Part shown: piece by piece, positions 1 through 52,296 of the stretch
How the letters are laid out: the number at the start of each line of letters is the position of its first letter
Numbering within the stretch: the stretch's first letter is position 1
Assembly: GCA_949710005.1 (NCBI GenBank)
Contig: OX453285.1
Span: forward strand, 6,157,132 to 6,221,131
DNA: 64,000 nt
Direction: 5' to 3'
Origin: Ricordea florida
Taxonomy: Eukaryota > Cnidaria > Anthozoa > Corallimorpharia > Ricordeidae
Notes under the pieces: generated by a model
What the model was told of the DNA's origin: nothing
The model's database searches: none
Seen by the model: the letters and a program-made list of their open reading frames with translations, nothing else
Made by a program: the position numbers and the translations under genes

Positions 1-42
1 CTTAATAGGAGACTTAAAGGTTAGAATATATTAACTCATAAC

Positions 43-429
43 ATGTCTGAAGAAAACACTGTTGAGCAAATTACTAAAGAGCCTGAAGTTAAAATAAAAG
101 TCAAAGACCCCAAAAGAGTAAAGGCTGGTAAGGCGATACAAGCCAAAAGAAATGAAGCTATGGCTTTTTATAAGCGGGCGCAGGAGAAAGAGGAGATGGC
201 CAACAAAAAAGATGAAAATAGTGTTCATGAATGGCTGCCAAGTCTATCATTCCAGAATGTGTTAACAATTGGATCCATTGGACTCGCTGCCTATGCCTTA
301 TTCACAAATTATAGGAATAGAATACCTGACATACATGTACCAGTTATGAATTTCAATCCCCCTCCAGTCAAAATCATGGATAATAGAGATCCACCCGAAG
401 AAAATAATTTAAAAGATGACTGGATGTAA
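43..429 (+). CDS. Small basic protein with one membrane segment
   Basis: 128 codons. The N-terminal half is highly charged, rich in K and E, with a DPKRVKAGKAIQAKR stretch near residues 22-36, and looks helical. A hydrophobic segment near residues 71-89 (NVLTIGSIGLAAYALF) could span a membrane. A Pro-rich acidic tail follows. It is the first complete gene of the plus-strand cluster and ends 7 bases before the next start. The DPKRVxAGKxIxxKR-type motif is one I have seen in small proteins of virus-like elements, but I cannot name a function. Confidence 0.6.
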   Translation: MSEENTVEQITKEPEVKIKVKDPKRVKAGKAIQAKRNEAMAFYKRAQEKEEMANKKDENSVHEWLPSLSFQNVLTIGSIGLAAYALFTNYRNRIPDIHVPVMNFNPPPVKIMDNRDPPEENNLKDDWM

Positions 430-436
430 TTCATAA

Positions 437-583
437 ATGTCTGACAACAAGCTCGTAAAAACAGTTACTGATTCTGCAGTGCTCATTGGGCTAGCTGCCG
501 CTGTTGGTTATGTTGGAAAGAAGGCTCTAAGAGAATCATTCATTGGAGATCCATCATCAAGTATAATGAATTATGGTAAATGA
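437..583 (+). CDS. 48-residue membrane miniprotein
   Basis: A short frame beginning MSDNKLVKTVTDSAVLIG with a Gly/Ala-rich hydrophobic helix at about residues 13-29, followed by a basic patch and GDPSSSIMNYGK. It sits 7 bases after the upstream gene, and its stop overlaps the next start as ATGA. That tight packing and the clear amphipathic/TM pattern are the reasons for calling it. The function is unknown; a small virion membrane protein is only a guess. The C-terminus may be shortened relative to relatives. Confidence 0.5.
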   Translation: MSDNKLVKTVTDSAVLIGLAAAVGYVGKKALRESFIGDPSSSIMNYGK

Positions 584-1011
584 GTGGCTGTATTGAGTGC
601 AAGTATGTACCTCAAAACTTATTTAGAGGATCAGAAGATATTACCACAAAGTTGATGAGAATGGAAGAATTTGATAAAGCTCATAATAAGTTTAGAATGG
701 CTTTACTAGACCATATAAGAGACTACTTTTTGTATCTTCGCTCAATTATACAAATTTACTCTTACAACGAGTCAACTGGTTCTTATGAAAAAGCTAAAAT
801 GCCTTCAATGGATAAAATGGTTGAAATTTATTATCAAATTTATCCAAATAGTTTCTCTGAACACGAGCCTAAATTTAATGATTTTATACATATTATACAT
901 AAAAAGGAACCACCAAATAGATCAATAATGGTACCCATAATCACCCTTGCCAGCTTTGCAAGTTTAGCATTTTACACAATATCAAAATTGTTTAAGAGAA
1001 AAGAGAACTAA
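580..1011 (+). CDS. Tail-anchored protein of unknown function
   Basis: 143 codons. The N-terminus carries a CIEC pair (residues 4-7), the middle is a charged, probably helical domain rich in aromatic residues, and the C-terminus is a hydrophobic anchor (about residues 115-135, IMVPIITLASFASLAFYTI) followed by a basic KLFKRKEN tail. The start overlaps the previous stop by four bases. The topology suggests a tail-anchored protein facing the cytoplasm. I recognise no family. Confidence 0.55.
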   Translation: MSGCIECKYVPQNLFRGSEDITTKLMRMEEFDKAHNKFRMALLDHIRDYFLYLRSIIQIYSYNESTGSYEKAKMPSMDKMVEIYYQIYPNSFSEHEPKFNDFIHIIHKKEPPNRSIMVPIITLASFASLAFYTISKLFKRKEN

Positions 1012-1018
1012 TGTGTAA

Positions 1019-1423
1019 ATGGCGAGTATAGCAATCATGCTTGGAGGAGCAGTCCTCAATGCAACAGCCTTCATTGGTGGAAATTATATAGCAAAGGCCC
1101 TTAGTGGTTCATCTTCAGCTGATCTACAACTCGAAAGGGAAAGGCATGACAAAGCAATGGAGAAGTACCAAAAAGATTACGCTGCGTACCAAGAAAAGCG
1201 CTTGGCTTATATTGACTTTATGAATAAGAGGAAGGGTGATGAAGACCAGGCCTCTGAAAATATATCAAAGACTGATGAAGCACTTAGATTGTACAATCAA
1301 ATGGGCAATCCACCAAAATTCTCTGACTACTATAGACCTAATTCAGATAAAAAAATTGGAGAAATGGCTTATGTTTCTGGTGGTATGTTAGCCTTGGGAT
1401 ACATTACGAGCAAGTGGCTATAA
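1019..1423 (+). CDS. Two-hydrophobic-segment protein with central coiled region
   Basis: 134 codons. It begins MASIAIMLGGAVLNATAFIGG, a Gly/Ala-rich hydrophobic segment. A charged helical middle (about 36-85, with ERERHDKAMEKYQKDYAAY) follows, then a second hydrophobic segment at the end (YVSGGMLALGYITSKWL). I recall similar uncharacterised predicted proteins from marine invertebrate genomes, which would fit a recurrent element-borne gene, but have not searched. The stop TAA overlaps the next ATG as TAATG. Probably a structural or membrane-remodelling component; function unproven. Confidence 0.55.
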   Translation: MASIAIMLGGAVLNATAFIGGNYIAKALSGSSSADLQLERERHDKAMEKYQKDYAAYQEKRLAYIDFMNKRKGDEDQASENISKTDEALRLYNQMGNPPKFSDYYRPNSDKKIGEMAYVSGGMLALGYITSKWL

Positions 1424-1662
1424 TGGCTGTAACAGATAATACAATGACTCCCAGTGAATATATTCGTATGGTAGGTTTAAGAGCCACACAACTCAAATTT
1501 GGTAAGAAACCTGTTATAGAACGGAAAGGGGTCTTTGATCCAATAGCCATTGCTAAGAGTGAAATCAAACAGCGTGTTTTGCCAATGGCTATAGTTAGAA
1601 AGATACCAGGTTCACGTGATGAGATATGGAACATAAAAGATATGAATATCCGAGACTTTTGA
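1423..1662 (+). CDS. RPB6/RpoK-like RNA polymerase subunit
   Basis: 79 codons from the ATG that overlaps the previous stop. Residues 10-75 follow the fold signature of archaeal RpoK, eukaryotic RPB6 and bacterial omega: an SEYIRMVGLRATQLKFG helix (11-27), a P-x-(V/I)-E turn (KKPVIE), the FDPIAIAKSEI helix (38-48), then LPMAIVRKIPG and an EIWNIKDM end that matches the YLPDGSYEDW-type tail. Known members bind the largest polymerase subunit and assist assembly. RPB6 genes occur in nucleocytoplasmic large DNA viruses. A free-standing copy in a small element would suggest recruitment of, or competition for, host polymerase. The fold call is by eye. Confidence 0.72.
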   Translation: MAVTDNTMTPSEYIRMVGLRATQLKFGKKPVIERKGVFDPIAIAKSEIKQRVLPMAIVRKIPGSRDEIWNIKDMNIRDF

Positions 1663-1697
1663 AATCAATTTAGAAGTTCCCATATTTAGCATCAAAT

Positions 1698-2630
1698 ATG
1701 GCAACTGCTGATTTAGACCCAACTACAATAAATGAACCTGGGACTGGTGATGATGGGGATGAAACATTTTATCTTAGCCCAATCACAAGGACATCAACCA
1801 CTTATGAAGATCCTAATGATGAAGAAGAAACATCATTTGGTGGTGAAACCCCCCGGCCCTTGATAGATAGTAAGATGAAAGATCAAGATGATGCGGAAAA
1901 ATAAATCAAAAGATTTTTCCCATATGCAAAGACTTCTGAGTTCATAAAAGGTGTTGGTAGGTCAATTACTGGTAATATAGAGAAAGTATTTTTGAAATTG
2001 AAGAGGGCAAATGCTCGTGAATACATTTTATTACCTAATGGTGAATTCACTGAAAATCTACCACAAGGATTGAAAGAAAGTCTAGGCCCAAGAGCACCAG
2101 AGGCTATTGAAGCTAATAATGATGAGATAACTAAGAAAAAGGGATTACTCACCAAAATGAAGGAGAATCTAAGATTCCACAGAGACAAGCCACTTAAAAC
2201 TCCAGAGGAAACTAGCCAAATAGAAACTCTCTCGAGAGAAATTGCTGAGCAAGAACAAGAGATAGCCAACTTGGAAGAGGAGAATGAGCAAATCCAGGAA
2301 CGAATGTCATTGCGAGACCGGGTGAAGGCTATATTCAAGAAATATGGATTTACAGTCTTTGCCGTTATGAGTGCAGTTGGAGTGGTAATTGGTGTTATAG
2401 TCAGCAACCTCTCCAAAGGTCTCTCGAAATTGGGTAAATGCGTTGGTGATGGACTAAAGACAATTGGTAAGAAACTAGGCGAATTATTACCTGGTATGTT
2501 GGGCGCTATTGTAAGCTTCCTATTCAAGACTGCAGGTGAAGTCATTTCATTCTTGGGTAAGAACGCTTGGCTGTTAATAGTGGCAATTGTACTTTATTTC
2601 ATAAAGGAATTAAAAAAAAAACATAAGTGA
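1698..2630 (+). pseudogene. Coiled-coil membrane protein gene split by an in-frame TAA
   Basis: The frame opens at ATG 1698 with an acidic leader rich in D, E and T, meets TAA at 1902-1904, then continues open in the same frame to 2630 without an ATG near the resume point. The second part holds a basic stretch, a long E/Q-rich coiled coil (about 2130-2310, ISREIAEQEQEIANLEEE-like) and two hydrophobic stretches near 2345-2400 and 2500-2600 ending in a KELKKKHK tail. The uninterrupted frame on both sides of one stop indicates a single gene with a nonsense change; readthrough cannot be excluded. Function unknown, probably membrane-associated. Confidence 0.6.
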
Positions 2631-2636
2631 ATTTAA

Positions 2637-2813
2637 ATGAAGAGCTATTGTGTCAAAGAGAAAAAACAAACTGAATGCGTGCTTGGAAGTGAAACCTTCA
2701 CCAAAACATCAAAGGGTATGCCCATGATGAAGTGCAAATGTGCCAGCTGTGGAATCACCAAAACCCAATTCCTCTCAGAGGATAAATATAGAAATTTAAA
2801 GGAGAACGAGTAA
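2637..2813 (+). CDS. 58-residue zinc-ribbon protein
   Basis: The frame starts MKSYCVKEKKQTEC and contains KCKCASCGITKTQF. Cys5, Cys14, Cys33, Cys35 and Cys38 are candidates for zinc binding; the knuckle CASC (35-38) is clear. Small viral zinc ribbons of the MKxYCVKC...CAxCGxxK type are known; here the second Cys of the first knuckle is Glu8. The decayed copy in element B (around 25340) has Asp at the same place, so the two elements share a derived feature. It lies 6 bases after the previous gene and 9 before the next. The role is unknown. Confidence 0.65.
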   Translation: MKSYCVKEKKQTECVLGSETFTKTSKGMPMMKCKCASCGITKTQFLSEDKYRNLKENE

Positions 2814-2822
2814 TAATCCAAA

Positions 2823-3455
2823 ATGTTGAGCGTTACCATGTACGAGTCTGAAACTAGAGTGTACTTGGATCCTCCTCTGGAAAAGGTTCGTGAAATACAA
2901 CTCCTGGACTGTAGAATACCCAAACGATTGGTTAATTTCAAAGACCGCCAAGTCTTGTTCAATGAGAAAAATCAACCCCTCATAATAATACAACCCGGTA
3001 CATACTCTCTACGTGGTATACACGCGATATTTCTCAACAATACGGATAGGGCTAAGCTCTCGATTATTGAGACTGATACTGTTGACTATATACATTCCAA
3101 TAAGATCTTCAACATTAAACTTACGAGAGGTCTACAAATTGGTTTAGGTGTACCTGAAATCATAAATCCTGGCAAGTTATACCCCCTAAGTCTACAAATC
3201 AAGGAGCCCCTTAGACTTACGTGCAGTCTAGTGGATAACTTGTCATCCTATACGAATAAAGTTCAATCAGTGAGCCCTGTGAATATTTCACCCTCATACC
3301 TCCTTGCTAACATACCCTCACAGGATTATCCAGTCATCCTTGCACAAAAATCGAATAGTCCCATAAATCACTTCGATTTAAGAATACTAGACAGTGAATG
3401 GAAAAAGTTGGATCTGAAGGGTTCTCCCATCACTGTCACCTTAAGTTTCAAATAA
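2823..3455 (+). CDS. Penton-like (single jelly-roll) minor capsid candidate
   Basis: 210 codons. It opens LSVTMYESETRVYLDPPLEKVREIQLLDCRIP, and the order is short beta-like segments separated by turns, including an IIIQPGTYSLRGI segment and a final LDLKGSPITVTLSFK strand. The scheme of an opening tension or binding motif, a central PGxY segment and a terminal x-G-x-P-(I/L)-x-(V/F)-x-L strand matches penton-type minor capsid proteins of Polinton/adintovirus-like elements, which form the icosahedral vertices. The match is pattern-level only. It is intact and lies in the middle of the putative virion-gene block. Confidence 0.5.
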   Translation: MLSVTMYESETRVYLDPPLEKVREIQLLDCRIPKRLVNFKDRQVLFNEKNQPLIIIQPGTYSLRGIHAIFLNNTDRAKLSIIETDTVDYIHSNKIFNIKLTRGLQIGLGVPEIINPGKLYPLSLQIKEPLRLTCSLVDNLSSYTNKVQSVSPVNISPSYLLANIPSQDYPVILAQKSNSPINHFDLRILDSEWKKLDLKGSPITVTLSFK

Positions 3456-3487
3456 CATTTTAAAAGAAAGTTATAATCCTAACAAAT

Positions 3488-4098
3488 ATGGATGAGTATA
3501 ACAGAATCTATCCTGAGTTGCCTCCAACGGCTCCACCTCCAACCCCCACTGATGGACCTTCAGTTAGGCTTCAGCAGTGTACTGACATTTTGAAAACACT
3601 TAAGTCTGAATTGATTTCCATTATGAAACTGTACTCAAAAAGTACAACCGGTCCAAAGGCGCACTAATAAATGCAAGCTCAACCTGTGGTATACTATCTT
3701 GTATCTTAGCGGCTGGTGGATTGGGCACCTCCTTGAGTGGAGTTGGAATTGTGGCAGCTATACCCTTAGGGGTGACTAGTGGAATACTCGTTTGTACTTC
3801 CATAGCGTGTGAACAAATATCAAAGAGTCTTGACAAGAAAGCGGTCAAGCACCAAAGTACCATTACACTGGCTAAATCAAAAATAAACACCATTGAAGAC
3901 TTGGTTTCTAAAGCGCTTAACGATAATAAAATCTCTGACGAAGAGTTCTCCTTGATAATTGAAGAACTCAAGAAGTTTGAAAAGCTTAAGGCTGAAATAC
4001 GACTCAAAGCTCAAAAAAATCTGACTGGAGAAGACCCTATGGTATTGAGACAGAGGGTACGAAAAGAGATACTCAAAGAACTCAAAGGAGGGCCATAA
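3488..4098 (+). pseudogene. Hydrophobic/coiled protein gene with a frameshift at an A5 run
   Basis: The first frame (ATG 3488 to stop 3667) begins with a Pro-rich leader and a short coiled region ending near an A5 run at 3637-3641. A second frame is already open before that point and continues to 4098. It encodes a Gly/Ala-rich hydrophobic domain with probable membrane segments (LSGVGIVAAIPLGVTSGILV) and a helical tail with LVSKALNDNKISDEEFSLII. Neither part is sensible alone, and the second has no ATG. A one-base slip at the A5 run explains both. The family seems common in uncharacterised cnidarian proteins in my memory; function unknown. Confidence 0.6.
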
Positions 4099-4107
4099 CC
4101 ATAACTT

Positions 4108-4185
4108 ATGAAAAGGTATCTTATTGAATTAAAAGCTATAACCCTTCTACCCAAACACTGGATAGAAGATGGGCTTACTCGATGA
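4108..4185 (+). CDS. Possible 25-residue leader peptide
   Basis: A short frame, MKRYLIELKAITLLPKHWIE..., starts in the 70-base gap after 4098 and overlaps the start of the next gene at 4169. It is the only frame filling this gap, and the overlap style matches other junctions in the cluster. It may equally be chance. No homology is claimed. Confidence 0.25.
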   Translation: MKRYLIELKAITLLPKHWIEDGLTR

Positions 4186-5708
4186 TTTCAAAAGAAAATA
4201 TCCAAAGACTGACTTGAGCCAGTTTAAATTTGTTTATGATAGCTATGGTGGGTATATGAGATGGGTACGTAATGGATTAACAGTCATGTCTTATGATGAC
4301 CCTACTGGCAAGACATGGACTAATAGCCTTCCACCTAATTTGAAGATATTACTTTGGATTGATTTGGGTTTGAATGATAAAATAGTGAGCTCATTCCCAG
4401 ATAGTCTAACCATAACAAATCATCACTACCCAATACCAGCCGTTGACTTTGATGACTTTACCAGTGATACAACATCCATGCTAACCTCATTGGACATTTA
4501 CGTTTCAAACACCAAGAAATTCACTGCTAAGATGCGTAATGTGTTTAAATCCCAAGTTGTGACTTTCAAGTTTGGAAAGCAAGGCCGAAAGTGGTTGAAC
4601 GCACCTGACATGAATTATTGGCCTCAACAGCTTAATTTTGCAGTGTGGTGTGCAACCTCTGGATGTGGTATAAGTCCCTTTGAAAGCTTGAACTACCCCA
4701 AAGTGGTGGCTGGATTCATAAAGTTTCACGTGTATTTCACCATAAGGCGAATACTATATGAATTAAGTGTACCATTACCTGATGAACAGCCATTTGTCAT
4801 AAACAACAACCCTTACAGTAAGGTTGCCTACCAAAGGTTGTGCGCTGAATTCGGAATAGCTAATAATTCTGACTTCAGATGGAAAGGAGGGCGAAATCAT
4901 GGTCTGGGTGACATCTGGGTGAGCCGGCTACCATGGAAGAGGTGGGGGATTTCAAAATGTTCATGTGATTAGAAACTATGATGAAGATGCAAACCAATGG
5001 CCTGGCGAGGGTGGTAAATTCTCCGATGATGGTGGTAAGAAGGAAAAAGGTAATCTAATCTCATTCATTCGTAATGATGACTTTTCTGATTATAAATATG
5101 CCTGGTTCATTCTAACTAGTGGTTATGGACTCACCAAAGCTGGATTGGGTAGATTGAATAGATCTGCTGAAGCTTTTGTTTACTGTGTGTTGGGTGCACA
5201 AGTTAACACCAGAAATTCGATTGTTGGTACTGGTGGTGGAGCAATTGAGACTCAACAAGAGTTCTTGGCTTTGTTTGAAAGTAGTGTGATAGAGAATGAC
5301 ATCTCAAGCTCGGTTCAAAGATACCAACTAGCCACTCAAGAAGCTAAATTAAGACTGGATTTGGCCATTGCACCTAGAATATGGTTAATGCCAAGTAACA
5401 TGATTATAAACACAGAGAGTGTGGTTGGATACAATAACAACCTTATGAAGGCCACTGATGATATGAAATTTGGAGTTAACTCAAACGTGAACCTGGAGAC
5501 TAAAACTGTGGGGATAAGCCATAACCTAGGTTCTTCAAAAGTTAAGTTACCACATGCAGCTGTTAGATCTAGGCCAACACGCACACCAAAGATTGCTTCT
5601 CAACCAGTCAAAGAATCCTCACCAGAAAAATCTACCACCAATCATGAGGATATTCTAATGGTATTAACCATTGCAGCTGCATCTATAGCTTGGATTATTT
5701 TCAGATGA
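4169..5708 (+). pseudogene. Major structural (capsid) candidate, split at a G5 run
   Basis: Two frames overlap at 4965-4972. The first, from ATG 4169, is 267 codons; the second runs to 5708. The coding character switches frame at the G5 run 4944-4948, so this was one gene of about 510 codons. It is the largest gene of element A, follows the penton-like gene, is rich in aromatic residues and turns, and ends with a Ser/Pro linker and a hydrophobic C-terminal anchor (ILMVLTIAAASIAWIIF). Segments such as DMNYWPQQLNFAVWCATSGC and GLTKAGLGRLNRSAEAFVYC are distinctive. Size and position suggest a major capsid protein, but I see no diagnostic double jelly-roll motif, so the role is inference. Confidence 0.5.
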
Positions 5709-5751
5709 AAATTGAAATAACCAATCCATTGATCATGCCCATTAGTAAATC

Positions 5752-6120
5752 ATGGCATCATTAGCAATTGTTGGTAGTAGAAATTTCTTTGACAGTGACT
5801 TCTTGAAAGATCAAATAAGTAAGGCTCTTAATAAATGGAAGCTGAATCTCTCAGACATTGAATGCATCGTATCTGGAGGTGCAAGAGGAGTTGACACCAT
5901 GGCTGAAGAATTTGCAATTGAAAATGAAATACCATTCAAGAAGTTTGAACCTCAGTGGGACTATTATGGCAAAGCAGCTGGACCAATTCGTAATAGGGCT
6001 ATTATGGAGTGTGTAACACATGTATTGGCCTTGCCTTCATGTGTTTGCTCAATAGGTACTAAGTCAGCTATCAAGATGGCTAGGAAATATAATAGGGAGG
6101 TTATAGTAGTGTATGTCTAA
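5752..6120 (+). CDS. SLOG-fold protein, YspA/DUF2493-like
   Basis: 122 codons. The Rossmann-like signature is complete: AIVGSRNF (5-12), the phosphate/nucleotide loop SGGARGVDTMAEEFA (41-55), QWDYYGKAAGPIRNRAIME (68-86), a GTK-containing helix (102-110) and a final VIVVYV strand. This is the YspA-type SLOG family, which in phages and conflict systems binds nucleotide-derived ligands. The lysine and GPIRNR elements thought to bind the ligand are present. It is the last plus-strand gene before the convergent minus-strand genes. In prokaryotes such proteins act as sensors beside effectors; here no effector is adjacent except possibly the nuclease at 6538-7080. Confidence 0.85.
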   Translation: MASLAIVGSRNFFDSDFLKDQISKALNKWKLNLSDIECIVSGGARGVDTMAEEFAIENEIPFKKFEPQWDYYGKAAGPIRNRAIMECVTHVLALPSCVCSIGTKSAIKMARKYNREVIVVYV

Positions 6121-6134
6121 TTATTAACTGAACT

Positions 6135-6159
6135 TTTGTAACGTGAATCGCGTTACAAA
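6135..6159. promoter_or_regulatory. 25-bp palindrome, copy 1
   Basis: TTTGTAACG and CGTTACAAA form 9-bp arms around a 7-base centre, TGAATCG. It lies 15 bases after the SLOG gene, in the gap between convergent genes. Copy 2 at 7150-7174 is identical except for one base in the centre. It could be a protein-binding operator, a terminator hairpin or a replication/recombination site. No T-run follows. Confidence 0.6.
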
Positions 6160-6174
6160 TGTCTTGGCATGAAT

Positions 6175-6504
6175 TTATACATCTTTGTGAAATTCAATCA
6201 CACATTGATTTTTGTAAAACATAATAAATATTATACACACTACACTAATACTCAAAAATAGTATTCCCAAATCTACTGTATATATAACAGATATTGGTGT
6301 TCCTACCACACCTTTATAAAATTTTTTATTATTATTAGGAAAAACAGTATCTTTACCATTATCATCAACACAAATCCTAGGACCATGACACTTCTCACAT
6401 AAATACTCATCTTCACCATGTTCACAAATTCCATACTGAATATCATTCAGAGCTTTTATTAATTCAACTCTTTTTAGTTTACTAGACCCACCTTTCCATA
6501 AAGC
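6175..6504 (-). pseudogene. Zinc-finger/TM gene without a start codon
   Basis: On the minus strand a frame is open from 6504 to the TAA at 6177-6175 (109 codons) but has no ATG except near the end. It reads ...KRVELIKALNDIQYGICEHG, then YLCEKCHGPRIC (a knuckle pattern like the CEHG/CxxC repeats common in giant-virus proteins), then a hydrophobic C-terminal segment (LGILFLSISVVCIIFIMF). An out-of-frame ATG lies just upstream at about 6497, so a small indel near the start is likely. It points the same way as the next two genes. Confidence 0.5.
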
Positions 6505-6537
6505 TCAGTAAAATAGCAACCACTAAATCAATAAAAA

Positions 6538-7080
6538 TCAAATTTCATTTTTAAAGCACCATTTCTCAAGTTCTGAATTAATATAAGAATTTAGTTCGTT
6601 AAATGGTACAAAGTGTGGCACTCTTATAAGTACAATACCTTTTGATTGACATACATTATTTTTTAGTGAATCTTTGAAAACCTGATAATGAAAATCACTC
6701 TTATTTCTGTGAAACATAGATGTGTATTCATAATGTTGAAGCCCATCATATTCAAATGCCAATCCAGTACCAATACATGTTTTTATGTCAGGATTGAATC
6801 CATCAAGTTCAAGATTCCTACCCGTTCCAGGATTTTTCAACCAGTTTGGGCGGATTGAAGGAAAGTCGGCTCTGAATATGTTTTGTAATATTCTTCTACA
6901 CTCCTCTTCATACTTGTTCTTTGAATTTGTAGCTTTTCTATTATTATAGAATCTTAATCTTGAGTATCTCATGTTATTAAATGTATAAACATTCCTTTTA
7001 TAAACAAATACAAAGTAAATAATTAATCCTATTACAAACATTAAAATTAAAATATCTATAATGATTAAATCCCAATCCAT
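6538..7080 (-). CDS. Membrane-anchored VSR/PD-(D/E)XK-like endonuclease
   Basis: 180 codons. Residues 6-27 are an N-terminal membrane anchor (IIIDILILMFVIGLIIYFVF). After a basic linker comes the nuclease core: a helix with EEECRRIL (58-65), RPNWL (77-81), LELDGFN (90-96), AFEYDGLQHYEY (108-119), a helix FKDSLKNNVC (135-144) and IVLIRVPHF (149-157). The order matches VSR-like very-short-patch-type nucleases seen in giant viruses, where Asp of LELDG and Glu of FEYDG coordinate metal. An N-terminal membrane anchor is unusual for a DNA nuclease. The gene is intact. It may act in replication, host DNA attack or packaging; this is not determined. Confidence 0.75.
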   Translation of the reverse strand: MDWDLIIIDILILMFVIGLIIYFVFVYKRNVYTFNNMRYSRLRFYNNRKATNSKNKYEEECRRILQNIFRADFPSIRPNWLKNPGTGRNLELDGFNPDIKTCIGTGLAFEYDGLQHYEYTSMFHRNKSDFHYQVFKDSLKNNVCQSKGIVLIRVPHFVPFNELNSYINSELEKWCFKNEI

Positions 7081-7116
7081 ATTATTTTTCTTATATTAAT
7101 GTTTTTAATACATCAT

Positions 7117-7152
7117 GCCCACACCCATAAACTAATTTACATAAAACCATTT
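7117..7152 (-). promoter_or_regulatory. Shared upstream block (copy 1) before the nuclease gene
   Basis: Read on the minus strand, this 36-base stretch upstream of the nuclease gene contains AATGGTTTTATGTAAATTAG, a short spacer and GGGTGTGG. Almost the same block lies at 10384-10412 upstream of the minus-strand frame 10023-10346. Conservation of 20 near-identical bases at the same relative place suggests a promoter element of element A. No experimental support. Confidence 0.4.
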
Positions 7153-7174
7153 GTAACGTGAGTCGCGTTACAAA
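7150..7174. promoter_or_regulatory. 25-bp palindrome, copy 2
   Basis: The same 9-bp arms as at 6135, with centre TGAGTCG. It lies between the divergent ends of the nuclease gene (upstream side) and the 3' end of the 7193-7492 gene. Two copies with identical arms and 1 kb apart within a cluster this compact are unlikely by chance. Confidence 0.6.
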
Positions 7175-7192
7175 AGGTATCGTCGTCTATGA

Positions 7193-7492
7193 CTAACAAT
7201 TAATCACATGTAACTCTTCCAAGAAACCATTCCAAAATTTCTCAGCATCTTCCTTGTGTTCATTATCAAAACACCAATCCCATGCTCTACTAGGATGCCA
7301 TGCTGTAATCATTAAATCCTCACATAAATCATTGTAGAAACACCGCTTATGTATTCGCTTACAAGCCTCGTGTAGTAACTCATCATGAATGTTTTTACAT
7401 ATAATAACTTCCAAGTAATCGATTCCTAAATCATTAGGAGAATAAAATTTCTCAACAGGACCATCATGGTCTAAATATAGATACAAATACAT
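7193..7492 (-). CDS. Small acidic protein with an AWHPSRxWDW motif
   Basis: 99 codons. It begins MYLYLYLDHDGPVEKFYSP, is rich in Asp, Glu, His, Cys and Trp, and contains LMITAWHPSRAWDWCFDNEH near residues 60-79. AWHPxRxxxW motifs occur in small proteins of giant viruses and related environmental sequences; the function is not known. Cys and His spacing may allow metal binding. The start ATG at 7492 is the first in the frame. It is the outermost visible gene of element A on this side. Confidence 0.5.
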   Translation of the reverse strand: MYLYLYLDHDGPVEKFYSPNDLGIDYLEVIICKNIHDELLHEACKRIHKRCFYNDLCEDLMITAWHPSRAWDWCFDNEHKEDAEKFWNGFLEELHVINC

Positions 7493-8218
7493 ATTATGCT
7501 CCTCATCAGCAAGCCTACATACCTTCTTAACTCATTTTTGTCAGGCACAAAAAGCACAAAATTGACCACAATGGACATTTTATTTAATATCTCAACAGGT
7601 ATTTACAGCAATGTGGACTACTATATCTCAATTGAAAGGGGATAAAATGGGCTTCTTATAAAAAAAAGAATCTCATCATGACATCCAATAATATTTCAGT
7701 AAAAAAATCCTAATTAGCATAAATTTGCATAATTATTCATGAGATTTGTGGAAAAAATGAAATTTTTCCAGAATGATAGGTTATTGTACAGAACTGTTAA
7801 AAAGAAAAATGTTCCTCATCATATCAGGAGAGTGTCCTGAAAATCTGGCTGAAAAAGATAAAATCTAGAATTAGATATGATTTTTTATATACAACCATGT
7901 TAGTACATGAAAATCGGCAAAAATTTTTTTTTTTTGGAAAATGTTGTTTGCAGGTGTATCTGTTTAGGGCTGGGTCTGAAAGCATTGAAAAAGGAAAAAG
8001 GGCCCCCCCTCCCCCCGAGGGACCCTCCTCCACCCCTGCCAATCATTGGCAGGCCCCACTGCTAATGCTGCACCTAACTCACAATAACGTTAATTTGGTA
8101 CTAACCTAAGTCATATAAACTACAGTATTTTTTTTGGTATTTCTTTATTTTATTATTTTTTTATTAATTATTTTTATATATCAAGAACAATGCATAATAG
8201 AGATAATAAACTATGAAT
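7493..8218. other. Noncoding gap with no recognisable feature
   Basis: AT-rich sequence with a T-run near 7925 and a C/G-rich patch near 8005-8035. Frames here are short and low-complexity. It separates element A from the piggyBac-derived gene, and I see no terminal repeat. Confidence 0.5.
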
Positions 8219-9837
8219 TTAAGTGTTGTGATACTCCCTGGTGTGAAACTCCGCAAAGCAGTTCTTATCCCCCGTCACATGCATGTAGCTCTTGTTGCAT
8301 TGTGGTGCTCTGCAAAAAGAATACACCCTATTGTCAGCCTTGGTTTTCTTGTAGCACACGACACAGCGTTTCTTCTCCTTGGAGAAAACTGGAATATGCA
8401 CAGTTTCGAACTCCCCCGGAGGAGGAGGAGCTGGTTTCGCTGTGCCATGTACAGGTGGTACATCATATTCAGGGAAATCACACAATTGTCTTACAAGCTC
8501 TTCCCTGAATTGAGCCAGTGAATAATCAGGTGACCTACGAAGGGCTTCATTGTCAGGAAACTTAGCCTGGTGCTCTTTGAAAAGAATAAAACTGTTAACT
8601 ACAGCTATATCAATGAGGTGGAAAAACAAAGTTTTCCACCACCTCATACACTTACGTAAGACATTATTGGTAGCTAAAATCTGATCAGATCTGTCGACTG
8701 CATTCATATATTTATTATAATTACTAATAGTTTTGGGCTGTGGTACCACTTTAGTGCTCCACACACCAGCAGTCTTAGATTTACGGGGACGGGGATCACC
8801 ATAAAACGAAGCAGGGGCGTGGGGTACTATACAAATATAAAATAATATTATAATTGGATGTGTGTATAATCCACAGATATGCTGATATGGGCCAAAAAAT
8901 AAACTTTCTCTTGCATAAATAGTACTTATACAGTTCAAATACTGACCTGGAGGAACAGCAGGGTTAGCAGGACCACGACCAGCAGGAGCAGGAGTAGCAA
9001 AGCCATGGGGGACTACATGGAAACATAAAAATAATTATTGAAATATTTTTATCACCATGTAAATAAATAAATATGCTGGAATCATGTGCAAATGTGCAAA
9101 TGAAAGTAAGAATTTTATATAATAATTTCAAATTTCTACTATTTAGGCTAAATTTATGCCAATTGAAAAATAGTTGACACACCAGGAACATCTGTATCAC
9201 GGGCATCCTCCTGCGTTCCTTCTTCATCTTCTTCAATTACTACACGCTCTCCTTCTTCATGTTCTTCTTCTTCTTCAGCACTAAGATGATTACAAACACA
9301 CTTTGTTTTTACTTAGCTTTATTTAAAATTTAATCACACAAAAAATAAGAAAACAAATGCCAATTCACAAACGCGTACACAACAAAATCAAGCAACACGA
9401 CCCGATCGCATCTCTCCATGGAAACACAACATCACTTTAGCGTCGGCTCGTATTTCGCGTCCCCTTTTGTTAGACCAAAATATCGCTCAAAAAGAAGCTT
9501 TCCTCCAAAATTATTGAGCTGTGTACTCCCGTATATGAATTCATAGATATCTTTTATGACATAGGCAAGAATTCAGACGCAAAAAAGGCATGCTAAAGAG
9601 CATATCCTCGCATTTCAAAAACCTCTGGGCAACTGCGTCACTTTGGGGAAGCCTCGTGTTCGAAAGTTTATTGATCGCTTACCTTGATTCTTCGCTCTGA
9701 TTTTCGAGCTGGCGATCTAAATCGCTTTCCTCGCCACTAGACATACCACCAGGATCTTCATCGCCATCCAAAATCATCTCTAGAACGTCATTTGGATCGA
9801 CATACTCGACTCGCGCTCTCTTCGACACGGACGCCAT
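8219..9837 (-). pseudogene. Spliced piggyBac-derived gene lacking the catalytic core
   Basis: Four exons with consensus junctions: 9837-9683, 9280-9183, 9012-8947 and 8826-8219. Phases agree at all three introns (2, 1, 1). Exon 1 encodes the typical piggyBac-derived acidic N-terminus with GGMSSGEESDLDRQL; exon 2 is Glu-rich; exon 3 is Pro/Ala-rich. Exon 4 holds NYNKYMNAVDRSDQ, RWWKTLFFHLIDIAVVNS and a C-terminal cysteine domain CVVCYKKTKADNRVYSFC...C. The DDD catalytic part that should precede the NKYM motif is absent. It could be a domesticated accessory protein or a deletion derivative with fortuitous splicing. No TTAA-flanked ends were identified. Protein of about 308 codons. Confidence 0.65.
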
Positions 9838-10022
9838 ACTCACGGTCGGAAAGTGAAAAATGAAAAATTCGTCGTGTATGGCACATTTAAGTGTTTTAGC
9901 CCAAAATCGCTCGGTGATTGGCTAAGTCTATAACCTCCCTGTTCTCCAAATATGGAGGGAATCGGATGTAACGCAATTTTTTGCGAATTTTTTTCTTCCT
10001 TGGGTATATATGTACCCAAATT
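9838..10022. other. Upstream region of the piggyBac-derived gene
   Basis: This short gap lies directly upstream of the piggyBac-derived exon 1. It has no clear TATA box at the expected spacing and no coding signal. Confidence 0.35.
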
Positions 10023-10346
10023 TTACTTGCGTGACAGAAATGAGTTAACAATCTCATCAGTAGACAAATTTCCATTATCAAAGTCCTTTACATATATAAA
10101 GTATAAAGTTCTTGACATACCATTAGTTTTAAACTCAAAACGAATATTCTCAATATACCCACGAAATCTTAAAATATTTTTTAGTAAATCTGACTTGATT
10201 TCCTCTATAAAATCATAAATGTGTAAACGATTGTTATTGTAATAAATAAACCCAGAAACATTAAATTTATTAATACCAGTCATTTCTTCCTCACTTTCCT
10301 TGCAAAATATATACCAACCCCTACCACGCCCAACCCAAAGTTTCAA
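10023..10346 (-). CDS. Orphan frame, possibly a displaced element-A gene
   Basis: 107 codons. The second half reads naturally (NKFNVSGFIYYNNNRLHIYD, then KSDLLKNILRFRGYIENIRF), with AT-rich codon use like element A. The start is uncertain: a Met near residue 22 may be better than the first. Its upstream sequence shares a block with the nuclease gene. I recognise no family. It may be a small gene of element A separated from it by the 7.5-9.9 kb segment. Confidence 0.35.
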   Translation of the reverse strand: MKLWVGRGRGWYIFCKESEEEMTGINKFNVSGFIYYNNNRLHIYDFIEEIKSDLLKNILRFRGYIENIRFEFKTNGMSRTLYFIYVKDFDNGNLSTDEIVNSFLSRK

Positions 10347-10383
10347 TTTTTATACAACGCTCCCACAAAAGATACAAATTTGG

Positions 10384-10412
10384 CCACACCCTAATTTGCA
10401 TAAAACCATTTT
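10384..10412 (-). promoter_or_regulatory. Shared upstream block (copy 2)
   Basis: The minus strand reads AAATGGTTTTATGCAAATTA and then GGGTGTGG, matching the block at 7117-7152 except for one substitution and a six-base gap. Directly to the right, 10413-10490 holds two copies of a 43-base unit (CATTTTGAGCCAWAAAATTA then ATGACCACRCCC). Confidence 0.4.
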
Positions 10413-10499
10413 GAGCCATAAAATTAATGACCACGCCCTAAAACCATTTTGAGCCAAAAAATTAATGACCACACCCATTGAGCCAGAATCGGCCTCCCC

Positions 10500-13400
10500 C
10501 CACTACTCCAGTTTAAAGTGTTAACAATGGAAGGATTTCTAGCCACTTAGAAGGCCCTAACTATTTCCATAACATAGGCCTCATATTTGGCAAATTTTTA
10601 GACCCTTAAATTTTTTGGTCCTTACAATCGGCCATCTTTAGCCCCTCAAAAAGCCCTTAGAAATCGACCCATTTTTAATCTAACCTTAAGTGGGCCTCAA
10701 AATAGGCCATTTTAACACCCTCAAAATGGGCCTTCAAAATGGGCGATCTTTTGCTCCTCAAAACAGGCCCTAAAGGTCGGCCCATTTTTAATCAATTTTA
10801 ATACAAGCCTATAAATTGGTCAATGTTTTGTCCTTTAAAGTGGGTCTTCAAAATTTGGCTTTTTTAGCAATTCAAAAATGAGTCCTAAAAATCGACATGT
10901 TGTTAGCCTTTTACTACAGGCCTTAAAATTGGCCCATTTTTAAACCTTCAAAATGGGCTCTTAAAATCACTGTATGTTAGCCCACCAAAGGCCTTAAAAA
11001 GCAGGCCTAAAAATCGGCTCATGTTTAGACCCTGAAATTGGGTCCGCAAAATCGGTTATTTTTAGCCCCTAAAAAGGCCCGAGATTGGCTGATACTTAAA
11101 TTAAATTACATTAAAATTGGACTAATTTTACCCCTTAAAAATTATTCTTACTTTAGCCCACTTAAATAAGGTTAAGAATTAGACCATCTTTAGACTTTAA
11201 ATTTGGGGCCTTTAAATCGACCATTTTATAATTAAACCACTCAAAACAGGCTGTAAATATCGACTTAATTTTAGCCCCAGACAATGGGCCTTACAATTAG
11301 CCCTAAAAATCGACCATGCTTAGTCCCTCGAATAAAGCCCCCCCAAAGTGGCCCAATTTTAGGCCCTCAACATAGGCCCTCAAACTGGTCCATTTTTAAC
11401 ACCTTAAAAAGAGCACTTAAAATCGGCGTACTTTTATCCCCTTAAAATGGGCCCTAAAATGAACAAATTTTTGACCTTCGAGTTTAAAATTGGACTATTT
11501 TTACACCTTTAAAAAGGGCCCTCAAAATAAGCCATTTTTATCCCTCAAAAAGGCCCTCAAATTGTCCTAATTTTAGCCTCCTAAAACAGGCCCACATAAT
11601 CGGCCATTTTTCAGCCCCTGAACATGCATGGGCCCTCAAAATAAGCCATTTTTAACACATTTAAAAGGATCTTGAGATCGGACTATTCTAAGCTCCTCAA
11701 AGAAGGCTCTTAAAATTGTACCACCTTAGCCCACTAAAATGGGATTTGGACCCTCAAAATGGGCATTCAAAATTGGTCGACTTTTAGCTTCTTAAAACAA
11801 GACCTAAAAATTGGTCCATCTTTAGCAACGAAATAGGCCTTAGGTTTTGTCCCATTTAAGTGGTCTTTTTATGCCCCCTTAAATAGGCCTCAAAGTTAGC
11901 CCATTTTAGATCCTCAAAATGGGCTCTTAAAATCGGCCATTGTTAGCCACTCAAAACAGCCGTAAAAACTGGCGTATTCGTTTACTAAAATGACCTTAGA
12001 AATTGGCCCATTTAAAGACCCTTAAGACCCAACTGTGGGGTCCATTTTCAGCCCCTTAAAATGGGCCTCACAATTAACCCTCGAAATCGATTATTTTTAG
12101 TTCCTCAAAAAATGCGTGTAGAATGTATGTATGTTCATTTGCCACAAGATTAAAAGTAATACAGACACAAGCAATAATAATAATAATAATAATAATGAAG
12201 TTGATAAAAAAGGATGGATGTTACAATAATTGTGAAGAGAAGACCCCGAGAAATCACCGGGCTTATAAGAGGGACCCCCTCACATGCTTCGTATGTAGTC
12301 CTCATTTACATTTTAAAGTGCGTTGTAGACTCTATACAAGCGGAAGGCAACTTCATAGTCACAGCGTGAAAAGACAAATATTTGAATCGGACCATTTTAA
12401 GCCCCATAAAAATCGTCTTAATTTTTGCCCCCTAAAACAGGCCCTCAATAGCTCCTTAAGAACGGCTAAAAAAATTGATCCATTTTTGAACTCTCAAAAT
12501 TGGCCTAAAAGTAAGTCCATTTTTATACCCTCAAAATGGGCTATTAAAATCGGCCATTTTTAGTCACTTAAAACAGGCGTAAAAATCGGCTTATTCTTAT
12601 TCTTAAATGAGCTTAAAAAATTGCCTATTTTAAGACCCTCGAGATTGGCCCATTTTCGAAAAGACTCTTTTTAGTCCCTCAAACAGGGCCCTTAAAGAAG
12701 GGCATTTTTAACCCCCTAGAAGAAGTCCTCAAATCGGATTATTTTTATTCCTCTTTAAGGTTACACAATACCTTCGCGGGTGTCCTTCGGAAAAAAATTC
12801 GTACGCGCGTTGTTTTAAAGTAAACTACCACAAACTATATATCAATAGAAAGGTAAAGAACTGTAGAATTCGAAAAAAAATATCCGTTGTTTGGCAGAGC
12901 CATTATTGAGAAGAAAAAAGCCAATAAACCGAAAACGACCGAGTGTCATTCCGCCGAATTAATCGGGTATGTAGAATGGACGGATAATTTTGAAATTTGG
13001 CCAGAACATTCATTAAGCATCGAGGAACAAAAACGTGTCGGGGATTAGCTTTAATTTAGATATTTCTCATTTTACGGCCGCGAACGCAACGGGGTCGGCA
13101 AATTATTCGCTACTACAACTTTACGGGTCTATAAAAAGATAACCAATAAGAATTACGAAAAAGCCTGACACCCTTTTAGAGATTGATGCTTGCTGATTTA
13201 CATTGTGCAGTTCTTTTGCAGTAGTGGCTGCGTTTGATACCCGATTAATTCGGCAGAATGACACTCGGTCGTTTTCGGTTTATCGGCTTCTTTCTTCTCA
13301 ATAATGGCTCTGCCAAACAACGGATATTTTTTTTCGAATTCTACAGTTCTTTACCTTTCTATTGATATATAGTTTGTGGTAGTTTACTTTAAAACAACGC

Positions 13401-24107: not shown

Positions 24108-24475
24108 AATATGTAAATAAGTAAATAAGTAATAATAATACCAATACTAATACTAATACTAATACCAATACCAATACCAATACCAATACCAATACCAATA
24201 CCAATACACATACCAATACCGATACCGATACTTGTACCAATACCAATACCAATACCAATGCTAATACTAGTACTAATAGTAATATTAATAGTAATAGTAA
24301 TAGTAATAGTAATAGTAAGAGTAAGAGTAAGACTAAGACTAAGACTAAGACTAAGACTAATAATAAGACTAATATTTATACTAATACTAGTACTAAAATT
24401 TATACTAATACTAATACTAATATTTATACTAATACTAATACTAATATTTATACTACTAATAATAATAATGTAGTA
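24108..24475. repeat. (ACCAAT/ACTAAT)n microsatellite
   Basis: Six-base units ACCAAT, ACTAAT, AGTAAT and ACTAAG in blocks over about 365 bases, directly beside the ACSM exon 8 acceptor. Frames across it (poly-LV) are artefacts. Confidence 0.9.
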
Positions 24476-38036: not shown

Positions 38037-38470
38037 CGTAATGACGTTAATTGATCATCGCAGTTATGTACACAACTTAACCAGCTGTGAAATTTAAGCC
38101 TAAAAAAAACTCAGGCCTGAACGGGATTCGAACCCATGACCTCTGCGGTACCGGAGCAATGCTCTACCAACTGAGCTATCAAGCCAACTGGGACCTGGTT
38201 ATATTGTCAGTTCTTAACATACCCGTAGATGGAGAAGAATGATGCAAGTGAATATATGAAAGACCATATATTTGAACTGCAGAGTAATATGTAATGACGT
38301 TAATTGATCATCGCAGTTATGTACACAACTTAAGCAGCTGTGAAATTTAAGCGTGAAAAAAAAAAAAAACTCAGGCCTGAACGGGATTTGAACCCATGAC
38401 CTCTGCGATACCGGAGAAGTGCTCTACCAACTGAGCTATCAAGCCAACTGGGAGCTGGTCATATTGTCAT
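38037..38470 (-). repeat. Two tandem copies of a tRNA-derived SINE
   Basis: Copies at 38113-38185 and 38373-38445 read, on the minus strand, as tRNA-like heads: A box TAGCTCAGTTGG and B box GGTTCGAATCC (GGTTCAAATCC in the second). The anticodon arm is poorly paired, and the residue before the presumed anticodon is C, so these are not working tRNA genes. Both are followed by the same tail (AACTTAAxCAGCTGTGAAAT and TTGATCATCGCAGTTATG), so a 250-bp unit is duplicated. Confidence 0.75.
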
Positions 38471-46124: not shown

Positions 46125-46448
46125 ATGTCTAGTCGCGAGTATTGGTCTAGGTTATGCGAAAGATGCGAGCTTATCTTTAACAAATACGGCAACGGTATAG
46201 CCATACCTTTGGATCCCAGTGACGATCCCCTAAGAGTATTCGAAGTCACTGATGTGGGTAAAAACGTGTTTCGTTTCGTGGTCTTTATCTTGTGGTTGAA
46301 ATATCAATCTCAGTCATTCGAGTGGTTTCTGACCATTCGTGAACGTCATCCGTACCTCTGGCATCAATGTCTCTACAGACTGGCGGTAAAAGAAGAATCC
46401 CTATGCGACTCTGTTGACAGCCTATCGAGATCCGGCCGCACCTGGTAG
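46125..46448 (+). CDS. Short frame overlapping the integrase start
   Basis: 107 codons from the first ATG of the block. It reads MSSREYWSRLCERCELIFNK, then FRFVVFILWLKYQSQSFEWF and RHPYLWHQCLYRLAVK, after which its tail (from about 46390) is the integrase coding sequence read in the wrong frame. So it is probably the true N-terminal part of the integrase protein separated by a small shift, or a small gene of its own that overlaps it. No domain recognised. Confidence 0.45.
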   Translation: MSSREYWSRLCERCELIFNKYGNGIAIPLDPSDDPLRVFEVTDVGKNVFRFVVFILWLKYQSQSFEWFLTIRERHPYLWHQCLYRLAVKEESLCDSVDSLSRSGRTW

Positions 46449-47451
46449 TTTGGGAGGTGTGTCTCGTTTCGCTCGAGCTCAAAAGTTACCCGTCGGAAAA
46501 GTACGAGAGACATTGGAGCGTGATTTGGGCTACACCTTGCACAAACCTCGAAGACGACGTTTTCCTACTCTTCCCGTGGTGGTGTTCGGTATCGACGAAC
46601 AATGGGTGGCGGATCTGATCGAAGTGATCAACATAGCCAAATATAATCGCGGTTACCGGTATCTGTTGACAGTGGTCGACGTGTTTTCCAAGTACGCCTG
46701 GGTGGAACCTGTCAAGACCAAGAGTGGTCAAGACGTGATGATTGCCTTTGAGAATTTTTTGAAACGAAGCCAAGCTCGACAACCTCAGAATCTACAAACC
46801 GATGACGGCAAAGAATTTTACAACAAAAACTTCCAAGCTTTGATGAAACGAAAAAACATTCATCATTTCTCCACCAGTGGAGACACCAAAGCCAGCGTCG
46901 TGGAACGATTCAATCGCACCTTGAAAGAAAGACTCTATCGATATTTTACCATCAACAACACGTTGACTTTCTTACCCGTGTTGCAAGATTTGGTCTTGGG
47001 CTATAACCGTTCGTATCATCGCAGTATCAAGATGCCCCCCAACAAAGTGACTGCAAGTAATCAAGAAGAAGTGTGGAACAACTTGTACGCCAAACGTTTG
47101 AACGTTAAGCGTCTCAAACCAAAATTTAAAGTAAATGATCGTGTGAGACTCAATAAGAAGTTAAGAACCTTTAAGAAAGGTTACCTACCGGGTTGGACGG
47201 AAGAAGTGTTTATAGTATCCAGGGTCGTTCCCGGAAGTGTAATCACCTACAAAATCACAGAGATGGATGGCACACCTCTGGAAGGTACTTTTTATTCTCA
47301 AGACTTACAGAAGGTCACCATATCGGACGACGATTTGTATAGAGTAGAAAAAGTGCTGAAACGCAAAGGGAATAAATTGCTTGTACGCTGGAAAGGTTGG
47401 TCAGATAAATACGACAGCTGGATCGACAAGAAGGACGTGAAAAAGCCTTGA
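46390..47451 (+). CDS. Polinton integrase, DDE type with chromodomain
   Basis: The frame is open from 46390 (after TAA 46387) to 47451 but has no ATG upstream of the catalytic domain; counting from the TTG at 46414, order is: TAYRDPAAPGSLGGV N-terminal segment, GYTLHKPRRRRFP linker, catalytic D67 (QWVADLIEV), D130 (LQTDDGKEF), E164 (VVERFNRTL), a basic SH3-like stretch, and a C-terminal chromodomain near 300-345 (YRVEKVLKRKGNKLLVRWKG). This integrase inserts the linear element DNA into host chromosomes. The missing start may reflect a one-base slip near the A4 at 46388-46391, or use of a non-ATG start. Confidence 0.85.
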   Translation, partial: KKNPYATLLTAYRDPAAPGSLGGVSRFARAQKLPVGKVRETLERDLGYTLHKPRRRRFPTLPVVVFGIDEQWVADLIEVINIAKYNRGYRYLLTVVDVFSKYAWVEPVKTKSGQDVMIAFENFLKRSQARQPQNLQTDDGKEFYNKNFQALMKRKNIHHFSTSGDTKASVVERFNRTLKERLYRYFTINNTLTFLPVLQDLVLGYNRSYHRSIKMPPNKVTASNQEEVWNNLYAKRLNVKRLKPKFKVNDRVRLNKKLRTFKKGYLPGWTEEVFIVSRVVPGSVITYKITEMDGTPLEGTFYSQDLQKVTISDDDLYRVEKVLKRKGNKLLVRWKGWSDKYDSWIDKKDVKKP

Positions 47452-47453
47452 GG

Positions 47454-48470: not shown

Positions 48471-48715
48471 AAGGTGGAAGTTTAACACGATTCAAACCAG
48501 ACCCACAAGACGGAGGTGGCTTTGTCCAAGAACTGCTGAAAGCGAGTGTTATGGGGGGTCTGAGAGGGTTAAAAAGCGGTCACGGCGTTCGAGATCGCAT
48601 TCGAAAGGCCAAAGAGGGTGCAAAACGGAGCGCTAAACAAGCAGTGAAACGAAAAGCTTACCAAGTCCTAGATAGAAACATCAAACGAAAATTCAACGAC
48701 ATATTTGGTAACTAA
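48467..48715 (+). CDS. Small basic core-like protein 1
   Basis: 82 codons starting in the ATGA overlap with the penton stop. MKGGSLTRFKPDPQDGGGFV then LLKASVMGGLRG, followed by an Arg/Lys/Ala-rich helix. GG motifs near the N-terminus may be adenain-type cleavage sites, as in adenovirus core and pVI/pX precursors. Probably DNA condensation or capsid cement; inferred from composition and context. Confidence 0.55.
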   Translation: MKGGSLTRFKPDPQDGGGFVQELLKASVMGGLRGLKSGHGVRDRIRKAKEGAKRSAKQAVKRKAYQVLDRNIKRKFNDIFGN

Positions 48716-48930
48716 TGAACCCCATCTACTCCAGAAGCTCGAGACTTGTCAAATCTAGGAAAGGGCTGTCAACGTCCGGTTGTGAAGGGCTCCCAAAATC
48801 CTCGAAACGTCAACGAAGGGTACAAAAAGGTGGATGGATTGCTCCTGAGGTCAGTAAACCGTTTGGTTACGATTGGGATCACATCTTAGCGAGAAGCTAC
48901 AGGAGAAGCAGAAGAAGAAGAAGAAAATGA
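48715..48930 (+). CDS. Small basic core-like protein 2
   Basis: 71 codons; start overlaps previous stop (TAATG). The N-terminus is Ser/Arg/Lys-rich, the centre has KGGWIAPEVSKPFGYDWDH, and the end is SYRRSRRRRRK. Arg-rich tail suits DNA binding. The VQKGG sequence resembles a cleavage site for the element protease. Stop overlaps the start of the capsid gene as ATGA. Confidence 0.5.
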   Translation: MNPIYSRSSRLVKSRKGLSTSGCEGLPKSSKRQRRVQKGGWIAPEVSKPFGYDWDHILARSYRRSRRRRRK

Positions 48931-50893: not shown

Positions 50894-50956
50894 TGATTGT
50901 TAGTTTAACATTAAAATACGATGGAAACCATTTGTGTGTGATGATCCTGAAGTACA

Positions 50957-52275: not shown

Positions 52276-52296
52276 GTGTGAGTGGTAGTATGTATC

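Follow-up and report, generated by a model that had tools for sequence, protein, structure and literature searches.

A 64-kb window of the Ricordea florida genome (assembly GCA_949710005.1, contig OX453285.1; G000:C14:6157132-6221131 in our numbering of an assembly of 538 Mb and 48 contigs) was found to contain the right half of a virus-like element, which is very probably a damaged copy of an integrated element of the Maverick/Polinton class, and whose lineage is divergent. "The window" denotes this whole stretch. The element carries a lone gene for an RPB6-like subunit of RNA polymerase, conserved yet dispensable, which is the part that a specialist would find surprising. The complete element measures 19,784 bp: the right half occupies window 1-10507, and the left half, G000:C14:6147855-6157131, lies outside the window and reaches 9.3 kb to its left, within the adjoining 10 kb of the assembly (L009). 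A preliminary description, made from the letters alone, had placed an unassigned element at 1-7492; an element is indeed present there, but neither limit held, as it reaches position 10507 and extends 9.3 kb leftward.

Ends, gene set and class of the element

The element was assigned to the Maverick/Polinton class because of its inverted ends and its gene set. The inverted repeat pairs L009:724-964 with window 10507-10303 (main pieces 96% identical over 174 bases and 99% over 107 bases), and the outermost bases of the element are AGTAGT on the left and ACTACT on the right. A 5-bp target duplication was read in all three copies for which both ends were available, namely CCAGT in the window copy, GATAC in the C6 copy (L031/L011) and ACTTG in the C1 copy (L032/L014). 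The right end and the genes of the left half, with open reading frames (ORFs) scored against Pfam, are as follows:

10303-10507, minus strand: right inverted terminal repeat, containing 38-bp tandem units, ACTACT outermost
L009:949-1452: dUTPase (PF00692, 1.6e-10, over cut-off)
L009:1606-2814: Rho_N/SAP-type protein (Rho_N, 4.8e-15, over cut-off)
L009:2796-5513: PolB-like ORF (Endonuclease_7 match, 1.5e-5, over cut-off)
L009:5477-6458, minus strand, in pieces: rve integrase (PF00665, 9.6e-7, 29.4 bits, under the cut-off of 32.6)
L009:6480-7718: candidate capsid protein of the type of nucleocytoplasmic large DNA viruses (NCLDV) (Capsid_N, 5.6e-4, 20 bits, under the cut-off of 24)
L009:7787-8422: A32-type packaging ATPase (PF04665, Pox_A32, 4.4e-11, over cut-off)
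L009, two further left-half ORFs: no family match

Left of the window, where the preliminary description had pointed, the PolB-like ORF, the rve integrase, the A32-type ATPase and the left terminal repeat were recovered. Its reading of an integrated virus is supported by the inverted ends, the target duplications, the integrase, the packaging ATPase, the capsid candidate and the many dispersed copies; the word "unassigned" was half right, the class being known from ends and gene set, and "giant-virus-style" is a fair term for RPB6, dUTPase and the A32-like ATPase. The PolB label of L009:2796-5513 comes from motifs recognized by eye, which we take to be those of PolB. No chromodomain match was found with Pfam in the integrase pieces, and the capsid candidate had no match in the PDB. 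In the life cycle envisaged, the integrase would insert the linear DNA of the element, its polymerase would copy that DNA, and the ATPase and capsid protein would form particles.

The element is repeated in the genome. The protein encoded at 2823-3455 gave at least 150 matches in the same assembly, 77-100% identical, from 4672 first-look candidates; the gene is not a chance ORF, because 137 of the 150 matches listed are free of stops. The capsid candidate gave at least 101 scored matches, 88 of the 101 listed being free of stops, and at least 39 of these 101 are followed on the same strand by a 2823-type match 4-14 kb away, at a median distance of 6.3 kb, whereas the two controls (opposite strand; upstream) gave 0 among the matches listed. 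No fewer than 100 relatives of the element are present in this assembly. Scans of viral contigs, and of genome contigs beyond this assembly, returned no usable relatives; one viral-contig match, L052, was dropped, since by eye the contig resembles that of a tailed phage and its 28% match is to a short ORF. Twenty right halves were mapped gene by gene, hand-picked from places with both capsid-candidate and 2823-type matches and therefore not a random sample.

Vertebrate Mavericks are described as having (AGT)2//(ACT)2 ends and 6-bp target duplications (PMC8097293). With Mavericks and Polintons as described in PMC8097293 and PMC4028283, the element has in common a length of 15-20 kb, (AGT)2//(ACT)2 inverted ends, an integrase, a packaging ATPase, a capsid candidate and accessory regions beside the core; RPB6, SLOG and the hairpin palindrome discussed below are features of the element not named in the descriptions compared. 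Bellas et al. 2023 (PMC10120064) placed capsid proteins of cnidarian Maverick-Polintons outside the main cluster of Mavericks, and the capsid protein of a Hydra Polinton was reported to match only NCLDV VP54 by HHpred (PMC4028283), a match which the Capsid_N match of the present element parallels. Kinship with the cnidarian Maverick-Polintons, compared by description alone, is a lead. In meldviruses (Buck et al. 2024, PMC11071296), capsid genes like those of large viruses accompany an integrase and PolB, and the capsid of Meld23486 has been likened to poxvirus D13. The element resembles them in combining a putative polymerase and an integrase of adintovirus style with candidate virion genes like those of large viruses; the terms "rpb" and "slog" are absent from the main text of PMC11071296, and RPB6 and SLOG belong to the element in this comparison.

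Several results weigh against the picture of a Maverick/Polinton-class element with a retained RPB6. The target duplication is 5 bp, and not the 6 bp of vertebrate Mavericks, a criterion of vertebrate elements, so that the difference bears on that subgroup. No adenain-type protease was found among the 27 ORFs and ORF pieces scanned with Pfam; an adenovirus-like protease is present in only 74% of Polintons (Krupovic et al., PMC4028283). The PolB-like ORF gave no polymerase match in Pfam or the PDB, and its match to the PolB of an adintovirus-like element in the same window was weak (E = 0.055). AlphaFold models of 2823-3455 and of an unbroken relative of the gene called P (4169-5708) reached a predicted local distance difference test (pLDDT) score of 37.5 and 32.7, from shallow alignments of 17 and 9 rows, respectively; penton or capsid folds were not obtained, and these scores are too low for a fold search. 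Finally, RPB6 is dispensable, being absent from 8 of the 20 mapped copies.

It is very unlikely that the element is instead a piece of an integrated giant virus (NCLDV), or a satellite that depends on one, with RPB6 as the remnant of a full viral RNA polymerase. The NCLDV-type capsid and A32-type ATPase matches would suit such an origin, RPB6 also matches C147L of African swine fever virus (ASFV), and NCLDV genes have been reported in Hydra and Exaiptasia (PMC5294986). However, the element is complete at 19.8 kb, has inverted ends, a target duplication and an integrase of its own, and recurs at many sites; no other RNA polymerase subunit was found among the same 27 ORFs and pieces; and plant and human RPB6 outscore the ASFV protein.

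Just beyond the right end, at window 10573-11944, lie degenerate repeats of ~37 nt, with similar inverted matches at L009:30-450. These could be either a host satellite or an old extension of the ends.

A lone RPB6 gene

The RPB6-like gene named in the preliminary description was confirmed:

1423-1662, plus strand: RPB6-like protein, 79 amino acids (aa), core domain of the shared subunit RPABC2 (phmmer against PDB 5.9e-9; profile 9e-13)

RPB6 is common to RNA polymerases I, II and III, according to the molecule names of the PDB matches. In a phmmer search of all PDB chains, residues 4-78 of 79 were covered, the best matches being plant (5.9e-9), human (5.2e-8) and yeast RPB6 (5.2e-7), with ASFV C147L (1.3e-6) and archaeal subunit K (1.5e-6) ranked lower. 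A profile built from 20 element RPB6 sequences strengthened the match to 9e-13, with the ASFV and archaeal chains close behind, so that the origin is not discriminated. Against the Pfam RPB6 model, the window copy (E = 0.0042) and five of seven further relatives scanned stayed under the cut-off of 26, and L033 (40.1 bits) and L040 (26.9 bits) exceeded it. A search of the animal's own genome with this model gave 13 matches, 11 of them over the cut-off, and element genes adjoin all 13 loci.

In comparison with cellular RPB6/RPABC2 and ASFV C147L, the element protein has the same core domain (75 of 79 residues) and keeps its signature residues. Residues invariant in the element set include R-A-x-Q, P-I-x-I-A and E, and the alignments show cellular RPB6 to be similar at these places. 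Unlike cellular RPB6, the element protein lacks the long N-terminal tail, and it is most likely a core RPB6 without that tail. Pairwise Nei-Gojobori estimates gave a median dN/dS of 0.26 for RPB6 (153 non-independent pairs among 18 full-length ORFs, a choice that biases the value downward), and, to judge from the sequences, the gene is under purifying selection. As to its absence from eight mapped copies, in six of these the next gene follows directly after the g4 stop, in L018 a deletion also removes the end of g4, and L029 lacks the whole area.

A second type of RPB6, 30% identical to the window type and likewise short beyond the core domain, belongs to a sister subfamily and occupies another gene position. 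In L033, L034 and L038 it sits between the genes of 2823 and 3488 type, and a broken gene of this type follows P in L036. Searching with it gave at least 150 matches from 359 candidates, 147 of the 150 listed being without a stop; 13 of these 150 have a listed 2823-type match 0.5-4 kb downstream, most of the neighbourhoods being unread. These data bear on the idea that RPB6 is a neutral passenger, captured recently from the host and without a role. Its absence from 8 of 20 copies, and the gain and loss of other cargo genes, would be expected of a passenger; the median dN/dS (subject to the bias stated above), the largely stop-free second type and the presence of two types, only ~30% identical and at different gene positions, argue against it, and we consider it unlikely.

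The known viral carriers of RPB6, such as ASFV, encode a whole polymerase. The RPB6 of the present element would join host RNA polymerase, or compete with host RPB6 in its assembly, and favour viral transcription; we put this forward tentatively, at less than even confidence. A protein that acts as a decoy or inhibitor of polymerase assembly, through putative binding, and not as a working subunit, is a somewhat doubtful alternative: the core domain alone is kept, and the second type likewise extends little beyond it, as a decoy might, but the core signature residues are kept and not altered. The fullest form of the proposal, which is speculative as a whole, is that a small (~17 kb) integrating DNA virus lineage of a eukaryote has long kept one host-shared polymerase subunit, at several gene positions, and would build from it an altered host polymerase for its late genes, with transcript ends marked by hairpins and no viral polymerase. 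A Maverick with a single RPB6 gene under selection would open the viral swap of one host polymerase subunit to direct testing. No paper naming RPB6 in a Polinton or virophage was returned by open-access title and text searches, which leave subscription papers, bioRxiv outside PMC and supplements uncovered and could miss other wording.

Hairpin palindromes and the cargo zone

The zone that separates the last late gene from the right end varies in content from copy to copy, and may contain a nuclease plus a Rho_N protein, a dUTPase, cysteine-rich repeat proteins, or members of a 158-204-aa family. The palindromes and the cargo genes of the window copy are:

6135-6159: hairpin palindrome, 25 nt, ~15 nt past the SLOG stop (RNA fold z -3.97)
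7150-7174: second hairpin palindrome, between two cargo genes
L009:1520-1542: near-identical palindrome, in the left accessory zone
6175-6504, minus strand: cargo gene with a Rho_N/SAP start and a CxHG motif, its start lost here (122-123 aa in L012, L017 and L019)
6538-7080, minus strand: cargo gene for a membrane-anchored endonuclease-like protein (phrog_559, 7.5e-10; in 5 of 20 copies)
7193-7531, minus strand: C-terminal part of a cargo gene of the 158-204-aa family, truncated by the nested insertion
7531-10044: nested piggyBac-type insertion (24-nt inverted arms, flanking TTAA)
8219-9034, minus strand: piggyBac-type transposase remnant (PF13843, 6e-12)

Of 21 right halves, 14 have the palindrome 15-18 nt past the stop of their last late gene. 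Its spacing follows whichever gene comes last, being ~15 nt from the SLOG stop in nine right halves and, when SLOG is absent, 17-18 nt from the P stop in five. Seven lack it there: for L013, L015 and L016 the stretch examined includes neither a whole SLOG gene nor the end of P, and L018, L020, L024 and L027 are true exceptions. By chance, 0.01 palindromes would be expected in the window, and the RNA fold z-scores range from -3.7 to -4.0.

Transcripts of Mimiviridae end at hairpin palindromes (PMC4402537), and the palindrome of the element bears a likeness to these. Located directly behind the last late gene, and also between cargo genes, it would serve as a transcript-end hairpin, a role that is quite possible, if short of an even chance. 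It is also possible, with reservations, that it is a recombination point for the exchange of cargo cassettes and not a transcript end. Cargo genes are flanked by the palindrome in the window copy, L012, L022 and L023, the left accessory zone contains it a single time, and the dUTPase, a left-hand gene in the window copy, is a right-hand gene in L011 and L021, as such exchange would produce; the 15-18 nt spacing from the last-gene stop (14 of 21) and the RNA z-score of about -4 agree no less well with a transcript end. The many natural copies make the gain, loss and movement of cargo genes around the palindrome readable.

The cargo genes themselves are diverse. What the preliminary description called a VSR-like nuclease, at 6538-7080 on the minus strand, stands as an endonuclease (phrog_559 7.5e-10, phrog_9084 3.4e-7, phrog_7140 4.5e-5), and the part of the call naming VSR is less secure. 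The cargo protein of L019 gave a Rho_N match of 5.1e-5, just under the cut-off. The product of 7193-7531 is 60% identical to the L022 family member over 62 aa (E = 1e-22); 10023-10283 was tried as its N-terminal piece and rejected, as BLASTP against the full-length L022 member gave E = 2.4. The insertion that truncates this gene has TTAA on both sides, at 7527-7530 and 10045-10048, by direct reading of the sequence. Repeat proteins of variable length with the pattern (GICEHGKxKYxCKxC)n are cargo at L011:6475-6969 (minus strand), where no convincing Pfam match was obtained, and at several other right ends. The dUTPase switches sides, lying at the left end in the window copy (L009:949-1452) and at the right end in L011:7015-7596 and L021:6924-7400, both on the minus strand.

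Conserved right-half genes and a second virus-like element

The dense packing noted in the preliminary description was borne out, with ~14 genes in 1-7531 by the ORF lists, some of them in two pieces, where ~16 had been counted before. Apart from RPB6 and the cargo genes, they form a conserved block of small genes of late type:

43-429, plus strand: g1, small protein with a hydrophobic stretch (ORF; 19 of 20 mapped copies)
437-583, plus strand: g2, 48-aa protein (19 of 20 copies; 93-100% identical among the matches listed)
580-1011, plus strand: g3, variable gene (ORF; strongly divergent from copy to copy)
1019-1423, plus strand: g4, conserved 134-aa protein (19 of 20 copies; median dN/dS 0.10)
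1698-2630, plus strand: g6+g7, acidic plus coiled-coil/membrane protein, split by a stop here and a single ORF in other copies
2637-2813, plus strand: 58-aa cysteine-rich protein, DUF5679-like (PF18930, 6.6e-6, 26.6 bits against a cut-off of 27)
2823-3455, plus strand: conserved 210-aa protein, formerly read as a penton (at least 150 assembly matches)
3488-4098, plus strand: ~200-aa protein, hydrophobic in the middle, its frame broken here and unbroken in other copies
4169-5708, plus strand: P, ~513-518 aa in unbroken copies, with a C-terminal hydrophobic helix, frame broken here
5752-6120, plus strand: SLOG-family protein, YAcAr/DprA-like (PF10686, 1.6e-11; phrog_289, 2.6e-23)

The SLOG matches uphold the earlier call, and the lesions reported earlier are real: a stop at 1902-1904 interrupts the coiled-coil gene, and the frame is broken in the 3488-type gene (near 3610-3664) and in P (near 4920-4970), the same genes being unbroken in some other copies. 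Across the 20 mapped copies, the coiled-coil and 3488-type genes are present in all, the DUF5679-type gene in 17, the start of P in 20 (as short pieces only in two) and its end in 17; RPB6 and SLOG each occur in 12, with a stop in one RPB6 and with partial SLOG genes counted, and the nuclease in 5. Median dN/dS values, biased downward like that of RPB6 by the choice of full-length ORFs, are 0.10 for g4, 0.12 for P, 0.13 for the 3488-type gene, 0.17 for DUF5679, 0.19 for both the 2823-type gene and SLOG, 0.24 for the coiled coil and 0.43 for the nuclease (5 copies).

The structural labels of the preliminary description were not upheld; for 2823-3455, a penton may still be the right label. The supposed penton at 2823-3455 had no convincing match in Pfam, PHROG, NCBIfam or the PDB, and the supposed capsid protein P had none either, whether its broken pieces or an unbroken relative were searched; the AlphaFold scores are given above. 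As a penton, 2823-3455 showed no profile link to the adintovirus penton of the window, and P, as a capsid protein, showed none to the capsid candidate of the element itself or to the hexon of that adintovirus, in comparisons that are weak either way, the alignments being shallow (effective sequence number, Neff, 1.2-1.5). In Polintons the penton gene usually adjoins the capsid gene or lies one gene away (PMC4028283), whereas the 2823 gene lies 6.3 kb from the capsid candidate here. A better candidate than P for the capsid gene is the predicted one left of the window, L009:6480-7718.

Two unlike virus-like elements lie within this one 64-kb window. The second, at 46390-60157 on the plus strand, is adintovirus-like: an integrase at 46390-47451 (rve 1e-13, with a weak chromodomain) is followed by ORFs which, labelled by eye, are in the order penton, hexon, protease and ATPase, and a PolB at 55788-60157 occupies two overlapping frames (DNA_pol_B_2, 1.9e-28). 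The integrases of the two elements can be aligned (E = 1.3e-14), but the capsid, penton-position and late genes cannot, and neither the capsid candidate nor P gave a hexon-like BLASTP match to this element, the sole adintovirus compared. The adintovirus-like element has a chromodomain integrase and a PolB recognized by Pfam, whereas the Maverick-class element lacks both matches. Elsewhere in the window, two tRNA-Thr genes lie close together on the minus strand (38113-38185 and 38373-38445), and a 340-bp TAATAC array occupies 24130-24469.

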